DNA from: Leucobacter salsicius M1-8 | GTDB taxonomy: Bacteria; Actinomycetota; Actinomycetes; Actinomycetales; Microbacteriaceae | Length of the DNA stretch: 64,000 nt | Assembly: GCF_000350525.1 (NCBI RefSeq) | Contig: NZ_AOCN01000022.1 | Span: 186,001 to 250,000, forward strand | Reading direction: 5' to 3' | Shown: piece after piece, positions 40,536 to 42,578 of the stretch | Numbering within the stretch: position 1 is the first letter of the stretch | Layout: each line of letters begins with the position of its first letter | Translations under genes and position numbers: made by a program | The notes under the pieces: generated by a model | Seen by the model: the letters and a program-made list of their open reading frames with translations, nothing else | What the model was told of the DNA's origin: nothing | The model's database searches: none

Positions 40536-41012
40536 ATGCCCAAGGAGACCGGTGAGAAGCTGATCGCTTCGAACAAGAAGGCTCGGCATGAGTACCACAT
40601 CATCGACACCTACGAGGCGGGCATGGTGCTTACCGGCAGCGAGGTTAAGTCGCTGCGCATGGGCCGCGCATCGCTCGTGGACGGCTACGTTTTCATCGAG
40701 CGCGGCGAGGCGTGGCTCGATACCGCCTACATTCCCGAGTACCTGAATGGTTCCTGGACGAACCACGCGCCCAGGCGCAAGCGCAAACTGCTGCTGCACC
40801 GGCAGCAGATTGACAAGCTGTACCAAAAGACTCGCGAGGGTGGCATGACGATCGTGCCACTGCGCCTGTACTTCTTAAACGGTCGCGCCAAGGTTGAGAT
40901 CGCACTCGCGAAGGGTAAGAAGGAGTACGACAAGCGGCAGGTGCTGCGCGAGCGGCAGGACACCCGCGAGGCCGAGCGGGCGATGCGGCAGCGCAACCAG
41001 ACCGGGGACTAG
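40536..41012 (+). CDS. smpB: SsrA-binding protein SmpB
   Basis: 158-residue tmRNA partner that delivers it to stalled ribosomes. [41 protein letters not shown] and the C-terminal helix [27 protein letters not shown] (the tail that fills the empty mRNA channel). ATG with AAGGAAGG upstream. Directly followed by ssrA, its RNA partner. Confidence 0.97.
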
Positions 41013-41075
41013 CCCGCGCCTGCCTCGGCTGATTGTTGAAGCTGAATGCTGGCCGGGGTAAGTGGTGCTACCATA

Positions 41076-41100
41076 AAGATCCGGCCTCGTGCCGGATTTG
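41076..41100 (+). terminator. Weak hairpin after smpB
   Basis: 7-bp stem ATCCGGC-CTCGT-GCCGGAT then TTGAT. A weak intrinsic terminator or part of the pre-tmRNA leader. Confidence 0.45.
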
Positions 41101-41129
41101 ATAACTCCACAGTGCATAATGTGAATGCC
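41100..41129 (+). repeat. Left arm of ssrA-flanking inverted repeat
   Basis: 30-nt segment (core CCACAGTGCATAAT) that pairs with 41532-41561 on the other side of ssrA: 26 Watson-Crick and 2 G-U pairs out of 30. Starts 60 nt before the mature tmRNA 5' end. Confidence 0.75.
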
Positions 41130-41159
41130 CTAGGCTTCGCCGTTCACGGCGTTGATTCA

Positions 41160-41529
41160 GGGGCCGATCGGTTTCGACACGTCGATTGGAGACTGTGAGA
41201 AGCGGGTCGAGGATGCGGAGTTATCTCGTTAACGCCCTTCGCAAAACAATAGGTGCAAACGTTAAGCGCACCGACTTCGCTCTCGCTGCCTAAGCACGAG
41301 ACCGAGTCCGTCAGGCCGGGTGTGCCTCCGCCCCGGTTTCCTGACGTCATTTAGGAGGCTTGCTGGCACGTTGCGTCTCAGGGCGTGCCGGGACTTTTGC
41401 TGAGGCTGGGCCTGTCGTACTAGCTGTTCGTGGCAAAGAACGGGGCCGAGTAGAACGTCTTCACGAAATACACCCGTAGAAGGCACGGAATCGTCGAAGT
41501 GGACCGGGGTTCAATTCCCCGCGGCTCCA
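41160..41529 (+). ncRNA. ssrA: Transfer-messenger RNA (tmRNA)
   Basis: Rescues stalled ribosomes with SmpB. The acceptor is GGGGCCG (41160-41166) with CGGCTCC (41522-41528), discriminator A at 41529; CCA is not encoded in full (CCG follows). The 5' GGGGCCGATCGGTTTCGAC and 3' T arm GGACCGGGGTTCAATTCC-type sequence are tmRNA hallmarks. Tag reading frame from GCA at 41255 to TAA at 41291-41293 gives ANVKRTDFALAA, a typical proteolysis tag ending in ALAA. Adjacent to smpB. Confidence 0.95.
41255..41293 (+). other. tmRNA tag-peptide frame
   Basis: GCA resume codon through TAA, encoding ANVKRTDFALAA. The ALAA end is recognised by ClpXP-type proteases. The resume codon is inferred from the conserved tag end and the preceding stop (TAG at 41250-41252). 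Confidence 0.85.
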
Positions 41530-41531
41530 CC

Positions 41532-41561
41532 GGAATTCATATTATGCACTGTGGCGTTGTC
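41532..41561 (+). repeat. Right arm of ssrA-flanking inverted repeat
   Basis: Complement of 41100-41129, starting 3 nt after the mature tmRNA end and finishing 40 bp before the next gene. Confidence 0.75.
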
Positions 41562-41600
41562 GCCTCTCGTCGCGTACGGCACCCGGTAGGCTGATGCACT

Positions 41601-42578
41601 ATGAAGCGCGTAGCCGTGGTGGTCCTGGAGGGCGCCAAGCCCCTCGACGTGGGCATTCCCGCGCAGGTGTTTTCGCGGCGCTCCAGCATGCCGTACACCG
41701 TCGAAGTGTGCGGGGTGCGTCCCGGACTGATTGCTGGCGGCGACGGGCTGAGCTATCACGTCGAACATGGACTGGAAGCGCTTGAGGGCGTCGACCTCGT
41801 CTTTATTCCGGGGTATCGCACTCCTCAGCTGGACGCGCCCCCTGTGGAGCTCCTGGAGGCGCTTCGCGCCGCTCACGCCCGTGGCGCGCGCATCGCGGCC
41901 ATATCGACCGGCGCGTTCGCATTGGCAGCCACGGGGCTGCTCAACGGGCGTCGTGCCACGACTCACTGGCACTACTCCCGCACCCTGGCGGAGCAGTTCC
42001 CTGAGATTCGGGTCGATGAGCGCGTGCTGTTTGTCGACGAGGGCTCGGTGCTCACCTCGGCCGGCGCGGCCTCGGGGATCGACCTGTGCCTGCACATCTT
42101 GCGCCAGGAAGCGGGAATGGCGGTGGCCAATCACGCGGCTAGACGCCTGGTGGCGGCGCCGTACCGCAGCGGCGGCCAGGCCCAGTACGTTCCGCAGAGC
42201 GTGCCCGAGCCGTACGGCGAGCGGTTCACTCGCACCCGCCAGTGGGCGCTGGAGCGCCTCGATGAACCCATCTCGATCGAGAAGCTTGCCGAGAACGCGG
42301 TCGTCTCGCCGCGCACATTTGCGCGCCGGTTTCGCGACGAGACGGGATACACCCCCATGCAGTGGGTGATGCGCGCGCGCGTGGATCGTGCACGCGAGCT
42401 GCTGGAGGAAACTGAGCTGGGCGTCGACGCAATTGGCGACCTGGTAGGGCTTGGCACCGCCACGAATCTGCGGCGCCATTTTCGTCGCGTGCTCGGCACA
42501 ACCCCTTCTGAGTACCGCAGGGCTTTCTCGCGTGAAGTGCAGAACGATTCGGGCGGGGACGGCCCCGGCCGGAGCTGA
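41601..42578 (+). CDS. GlxA-type regulator (DJ-1/PfpI + AraC HTH)
   Basis: 325-residue transcription factor: residues 1-180 a class I glutamine-amidotransferase-like DJ-1/PfpI sensor domain (VVVLEGAKPLDVGIPAQVFSRRSS, VDLVFIPGYRT, GARIAAISTGAFALAATGLLNGRRATTHW, with S replacing the usual catalytic C), residues 215-320 an AraC double HTH (TFARRFRDETGYTPMQWVMRARVDRARELLEET, NLRRHFRRVLGTTPSEYRRAF). TAGGCT lies 8 nt before the ATG. Target genes unknown; gap downstream is in the same direction. Confidence 0.9.
   Translation: MKRVAVVVLEGAKPLDVGIPAQVFSRRSSMPYTVEVCGVRPGLIAGGDGLSYHVEHGLEALEGVDLVFIPGYRTPQLDAPPVELLEALRAAHARGARIAAISTGAFALAATGLLNGRRATTHWHYSRTLAEQFPEIRVDERVLFVDEGSVLTSAGAASGIDLCLHILRQEAGMAVANHAARRLVAAPYRSGGQAQYVPQSVPEPYGERFTRTRQWALERLDEPISIEKLAENAVVSPRTFARRFRDETGYTPMQWVMRARVDRARELLEETELGVDAIGDLVGLGTATNLRRHFRRVLGTTPSEYRRAFSREVQNDSGGDGPGRS

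Follow-up and report, generated by a model that had tools for sequence, protein, structure and literature searches.

A conserved leader-trailer helix and an rRNA-operon-type element around the tmRNA gene of Leucobacter salsicius suggest rRNA-like processing of pre-tmRNA

The ssrA locus, its flanks and its predicted promoter

Leucobacter salsicius M1-8, a member of the Microbacteriaceae, has a genome of 3.19 Mb in 28 contigs. The window analysed here is the whole 64,000-nucleotide stretch of contig NZ_AOCN01000022.1 from 186,001 to 250,000, and positions are counted from its first letter. Within it smpB (SmpB profile NF003843, 218 bits) ends at 41012 and is followed by ssrA, the gene for tmRNA (Table 1). 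The gene belongs to RF00023 as an ordinary one-piece tmRNA; the family model stops at the mature ends and leaves the flanks outside.

Table 1 Features of the ssrA locus of L. salsicius M1-8.
Feature	Position	Strand	Basis
ssrA promoter (predicted), extended -10, TGC-TACCAT	41066..41074	+	TGN-TANNNT kept in relatives
Leader hairpin TCCGGC-CTCGT-GCCGGA, boxB-like position	41080..41096	+	Strand fold
rRNA-operon-type leader element TTGATAACTCCACAGTG, boxC region of rrn nut site	41098..41114	+	rrn-built matrix
Left arm, pre-tmRNA stem	41100..41129	+	Inverted-repeat search, complementarity, covariation
Small hairpin CGCCG-TTCA-CGGCG, spacer before mature 5' end	41138..41151	+	Fold
tmRNA gene ssrA, tag ANVKRTDFALAA	41160..41531	+	ARAGORN; Rfam RF00023 gives 41160-41532, 165 bits
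Right arm, pre-tmRNA stem	41532..41561	+	Inverted-repeat search, complementarity, covariation

The flanks of the gene contain an inverted repeat. Over 30 columns its arms form 26 Watson-Crick and 2 G-U pairs with 2 mismatches (87% complementary), and our recomputation agrees with a preliminary description of the locus, which had reported the same two 30-nt arms with 26 of 30 Watson-Crick pairs and 28 of 30 once G-U is admitted. That description had also placed the arms 30 nt before and 2 nt after the gene; the first distance holds, with 30 nt lying between the left arm and the start of mature tmRNA, and the second has to be corrected to 0 nt after the ARAGORN 3' end. This is the longest inverted pair within 1.2 kb around ssrA. 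Its score of 27.5 was reached by none of 20,000 mononucleotide-shuffled trailers, the maximum in the shuffles being 21.5. The core of the arms, CCACAGTGCATAAT, has two occurrences only in the 28 contigs of the genome, one in each arm. The helix is also present in the minimum-energy fold of the isolated strand (z -3.95), to which we give little weight because such a fold lacks the tmRNA pseudoknots and pairs the mature 5' end (41160-41164) with 41127-41131. The spacer between the left arm and the mature 5' end varies widely between relatives in both sequence and length.

The end of the gene (41525-41532) reads CTCCACC and then G, without a full encoded CCA, and the corresponding letters differ among Leucobacter relatives (CCG, CGA, CAC, CCA). 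Because a full CCA is not encoded and the end varies in this way, 3' trimming and CCA addition seem to be needed.

Upstream of the left arm lies an extended -10 motif. TGN-TANNNT occurs 27-50 nt upstream of the leader element in 34 of 36 Leucobacter genomes, a plain count made without a chance control, and in 27 of those 34 the spacing is 28-31 nt. Since this motif precedes the element of the arm in so many genomes, the left arm is probably transcribed, and transcription would start at about 41080, before the leader hairpin and the arm. A hairpin is found by eye at the same place of the leader in many Leucobacter. At the 41100-41561 locus of L. salsicius no site just past the right arm scored as terminator-like; terminator-like hairpins, again recognised by eye, follow the right arm in many relatives.

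Pairing of the two arms across Microbacteriaceae and beyond

Loci for ssrA were obtained from 36 of 37 Leucobacter genomes (G027 gave no match) and aligned by MAFFT, which is blind to structure. Facing segments of the two arms change together: CAGTGCATAATG/CATTATGCACTG in L. salsicius become CAGCGCGTGATG/CATCACGCGCTG and CAGTGTGTGA/TCACACACTG in other Leucobacter. The covariation score of the 36 genomes is 0.239, against 0.146 (sd 0.008) after shuffling, where 0 of 500 shuffles were as high, and against at most 0.111 in slid controls. Double changes are found at 19 of the 30 pairs and fill 96 cells, where the shuffles have 38 (sd 6). Each genome's own arms also pair better than permuted arms, the mean of the own arms being reached in 0 of 10,000 permutations.

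Single genomes were scored by ungapped complementarity; RNAduplex energies between the flanks were dropped, as long gapped duplexes swamp the signal. By this measure 29 of the 36 Leucobacter have a helix that none of 60 shuffles equals. The seven that fail are G006 (12 bp, equalled by 2 of 60 shuffles), G018 and G021 (10 bp each, equalled by 8 and 7 of 60), G024 (8 of 60), G028 and G034 (1 of 60 each) and G032 (1 of 60, with its best match outside the arm).

The wider family was sampled with one genome per genus, giving 69 ssrA loci from 68 further genera of Microbacteriaceae. The helix beats all 60 shuffles in 57 of the 69 loci, mostly over about 15-25 columns with few mismatches, and in the remaining 12 it does not. 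Across the 68 genera the mean score of own arms is 21.1 against 12.7 for swapped arms, none of 10,000 permutations reaches the value of the own arms, and in 30 of 68 genomes the own arm lies above all 67 swaps. RNAalifold applied to the full-length family alignment (721 columns) returned zero leader-trailer pairs, the leader being misaligned; the covariation result for the family comes from leader and trailer segments aligned apart. This alignment holds 65 genomes and omits G178, G182, G227 and G234, which have fewer than 24 nt from the element to the mature end, as well as the second copy of G239. The structure used, 18 pairs extended by hand from 7 pairs chosen by RNAalifold, leans towards pairing, and for this reason its counts are given with shuffled and slid controls: 886 of 1163 cells are paired (shuffle maximum 791), which is 76.2% against at most 46.6% when slid, and 169 cells show double changes (shuffle maximum 93, slid maximum 98). 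Two further measures in the same 65 genomes, pairs with a double change (15) and further pair types (47), are not above the slid controls (up to 15 and 50).

The preliminary description had proposed one long helix around the whole pre-tmRNA, like the stems of rRNA precursors, and had named covariation of the arms in relatives as its check. Both arms do covary, in the 36 Leucobacter and in the 65-genome alignment of the family, and own arms surpass permuted ones, so that the proposal is borne out by conserved, covarying pairing. On this comparative evidence the inverted repeat is a conserved RNA helix.

Among named genomes, where a tmRNA was present in 32 of 80 loci, the helix lies above all shuffles in Leucobacter (9/10), Cryobacterium (2/2), Plantibacter (4/4), Curtobacterium (1/1) and Glaciihabitans (1/1); it does so at no locus of Pseudoclavibacter (0/3), Canibacter (0/1) or Streptomyces (0/6), and the Streptomyces loci have no such stem. 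Two sister genera gave opposite results, with 2 of 2 genomes of g23 and 0 of 3 of g24 beating all 60 shuffles; two of the three g24 genomes have 11 uninterrupted pairs. At the level of the order, flanks were taken from 14 of 23 genomes outside the genus, and at the level of the class from 71 of 114 genomes with a tmRNA match (G109, whose tmRNA ends could not be recognised, was left out, and 42 lay outside the sample). The single-genome test scored 116 of 117 loci, G106 being dropped for its short trailer. Outside Microbacteriaceae, 2 of 3 genomes of family f18 lie above all shuffles. None of 13 other order members passes, one from family f5 coming close (12 uninterrupted pairs, 1 of 60 shuffles), and none of 59 other class members passes (60 shuffles each). 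Being present in most sampled genera of Microbacteriaceae and in 2 of 3 f18 genomes, and failing in other members of the order and class, the helix is a feature of this lineage.

Within the family, six small genomes (0.9-1.8 Mb; G178, G182, G184, G185, G196 and G199, loci L291, L274, L300, L271, L245 and L255) have no clear stem. Two others, G225 and G231 (1.6 Mb each), keep the stem despite their small genome. As several small-genome Microbacteriaceae have no clear helix, it is dispensable.

Several loci show further peculiarities. Genome G239 carries two ssrA genes about 1.4 kb apart (L258 and L305; C7:176728-177104 and 175332-175707); the leader element and left arm are found in both copies, and the right arm is strong in one (0 of 60 shuffles) and weaker in the other (2 of 60). 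In G118, of family f18, a second and weaker tmRNA match (C3:130901-131262, 118 bits) lies beside the main ssrA (L088). Six class members without the long stem (L058, L060, L062, L063, L067 and L101) have CCATGT or CCTGT near the start of the trailer, in its first twelve or so bases, complementary to ACATGG or ACAGG spanning the end of the element and the mature 5' end, which would form a short alternative pairing.

A boxC-type element shared with rRNA operons

The preliminary description overlooked an rRNA-type leader element that overlaps the left arm. The first bases of the arm lie within a copy of TTGAGAACTCAAYAGYG, the leader element of rRNA operons from the boxC region; the rrn copies of the same genome read TTGAGAACTCAATAGTG in the 16S leaders and TTGAGAACTACACAGTG in the spacer after 16S. 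The 11-mer of boxC to which NusA binds is GAACUCAAUAG.

The element was scored with a matrix made from rrn copies alone (12 distinct sequences, 44 sites, 24 genomes). The rrn sites were chosen by likeness to a 15-base seed, with 4 of 48 sites of fewer than 11 matches, and genome G039, excluded. No more than 1 of 100 dinucleotide shuffles scores as high as the ssrA leader in all 36 Leucobacter and all 5 other members of the family, in 12 of 16 from the rest of the order and in 28 of 60 from the rest of the class. Leaders scoring at least 6 number 36, 5, 12 and 29 in these four groups; the corresponding controls are 0, 0, 0 and 1 for the antisense strand, 0, 0, 0 and 2 for the trailer, and 0, 0, 0 and 1 further upstream. 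A score of at least 6 is also found in 64 of the 69 genomes of the family set.

Searched with one mismatch, the pattern TTGANAAYTCMAYAGYG matches 67 places across 10 whole Leucobacter genomes. By the positions of 16S genes, rrn operons account for 56 of these (upstream of 16S or in the spacer that follows it); 10 precede ssrA, one in each genome, and 1 is stray; read backwards, the pattern has 0 places in the same genomes. As the pattern was written to cover both the rrn and the ssrA forms, the informative part of this count is how few other matches there are. In 10 genomes from other genera it has 41 matches. Five of the 10 genomes have one in the ssrA leader, most of the remaining matches fit rrn operons or contig ends, and G238 has two of a different kind.

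Of the 28 class genomes that carry the element, 27 have its start 14-15 nt upstream of the mature tmRNA 5' end. These genomes have no stem, and conservation of the element there is consequently not a by-product of pairing.

The flanks of ssrA resemble an actinobacterial rrn leader, its nut site and the RNase III stems of pre-16S and pre-23S in three respects: (i) a predicted hairpin; (ii) a near-identical boxC-type element; (iii) a leader-trailer helix around a stable RNA. It differs in that the helix encloses tmRNA and in that no boxA half is seen. On reading, the leader before ssrA is CCGGATTTG-like, and not like GCTCTTTA, the boxA of E. coli; boxA is the site of NusB-S10. The geometry is also distinct: the ssrA arm begins at the element or inside it, and the short 16S arm of seven Leucobacter begins 21-28 nt after the start of the element. 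By the same method the 16S stem of this genome has 9 bp and is equalled by 25 of 100 shuffles; among 20 genomes, 6 have a 16S stem that beats each of its 100 shuffles. Since a boxA half is not seen and the 16S stem is short and not above its shuffles, what ssrA shares with rrn is the plan and the element, and its stem is not a copy of the rrn one.

A proposed processing route, its alternatives and its meaning

Sequence comparison establishes the helix, its covariation, an element that is otherwise nearly exclusive to rrn operons, and the position of the left arm downstream of a conserved -10. Building on these, we propose that pre-tmRNA in L. salsicius is constructed and processed like pre-16S rRNA, at a boxC-linked stem with a cut by RNase III, a reading that we hold to be likely. 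ssrA would have a promoter of its own, with the extended -10, and yield a longer pre-tmRNA. The flanks of this precursor would be laid out as in an rRNA operon, with a hairpin in the leader, a boxC-type element and a helix of 20-30 bp between leader and trailer that encloses the tmRNA. NusA, with other Nus factors, would bind the nascent element and hold the left arm until the right one has emerged. RNase III would then cut both strands of the helix, RNase P would generate the 5' end, exonucleases would trim the 3' end and nucleotidyltransferase would complete the CCA. Because the transcript combines an enclosing helix with a signal otherwise nearly confined to rrn, it is probable that the rRNA trimming machinery is used for tmRNA. 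The genome contains genes for RNase III (TIGR02191, 206.6 bits, cut-off 166.25) and NusB.

Published work offers precedent for parts of this route. In pre-16S rRNA, boxC lies within the duplex that RNase III cuts; NusA of M. tuberculosis binds a boxC-like RNA, and a role proposed for NusA is to present the two halves of the RNase III site to each other (PMC6614801). In the actinobacterium P. acnes, staggered cuts in the stems flanking 16S and 23S were ascribed to RNase III (PMC3848588). The preliminary description, which knew of no published equivalent of the ssrA stem, went too far there: for E. coli pre-10Sa RNA, likewise a tmRNA precursor, an initial RNase III step was reported in 1990 (Srivastava, Miczak and Apirion, as cited in PMC9032294 and PMC3386247), under a title that specifies 'in presence of Mn2+'. 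tmRNA of S. aureus is likewise associated with RNase III, being enriched with a mutant form of the enzyme in co-immunoprecipitation; its authors note that such recovery is no proof of maturation by RNase III (PMC3386247). ssrA RNA rises in S. venezuelae lacking RNase III, but the induction experiments of that study did not identify it as a target (PMC12096830). In the open-licence literature we found no description of actinobacterial ssrA flanked by an enclosing stem or preceded by an rrn-type element, and none of the nucleases that make the ends of actinobacterial tmRNA. An RNase III step on a tmRNA precursor is thus already known; the enclosing stem in actinobacteria and its rrn element would be new, and we infer the biochemistry.

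Two readings of the arms take them as something other than an RNA stem. Because CATAAT occurs in both arms of L. salsicius, the preliminary description had suggested inward-pointing promoters, one of them antisense to tmRNA. At the same offset, however, CATAAT is kept in only 2 of 36 Leucobacter, the looser YANNNT in 6 of 36 and the strict TANNNT in 0 of 36; the extended -10 lies upstream instead, and no sigma-70-type promoter match was found within 40900-41750. With the hexamer not conserved, we reject the promoter pair as very improbable. The repeat might instead act as DNA, whether as the terminal repeats of a mobile element, as a mark of integration at ssrA or as an operator, given that integration into tmRNA genes is common and that many elements are bounded by inverted repeats. 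Against this, arm sequence differs between species with pairing retained, the same layout of arms recurs in dozens of genera, and permuted arms pair worse than own arms. Mobile-element repeats are rejected in view of a core unique to the locus and covarying arms, and we regard a DNA role in general as having next to no probability.

Two other readings accept the RNA helix. It could form and yet be opened by RNase P on its own or by a different nuclease, serving to tie the ends together, protect the 3' end or aid folding; covariation is compatible with any role that depends on pairing, ssrA is still present in members without the helix, and in E. coli the ends of tmRNA are made chiefly by RNase E, RNase P and exonucleases. 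The length of the helix, its position and the shared boxC element nevertheless mirror the RNase III stems of rRNA, and we judge this reading improbable. It is less improbable, though still on the unlikely side, that the ssrA element resembles that of rrn merely as the sequence of a processing site, with no Nus factor involved. That no boxA half is seen speaks for this, as does the overlap of element and helix arm in Microbacteriaceae, where part of the conservation may come from pairing. It is countered by the 28 of 60 class genomes that keep the element without a stem.

If processing at a boxC-linked stem is correct, ribosomes and the RNA that rescues them share a signal for transcription and processing, which suggests joint control. 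ssrA would also offer a clean test of the presentation of RNase III half-sites by NusA, on a short non-rRNA substrate of less than 500 nt, and the model would help to explain which nucleases make the ends of actinobacterial tmRNA. More tentatively, as an idea that falls somewhat short of even chances, Microbacteriaceae may have placed tmRNA on an rRNA-type line, in which the boxC-type signal recruits NusA, presents the stem arm and ties the output and folding of tmRNA to rRNA synthesis; in much of Actinomycetia the signal alone, lying next to the mature 5' end, may be older, with the stem a later addition.
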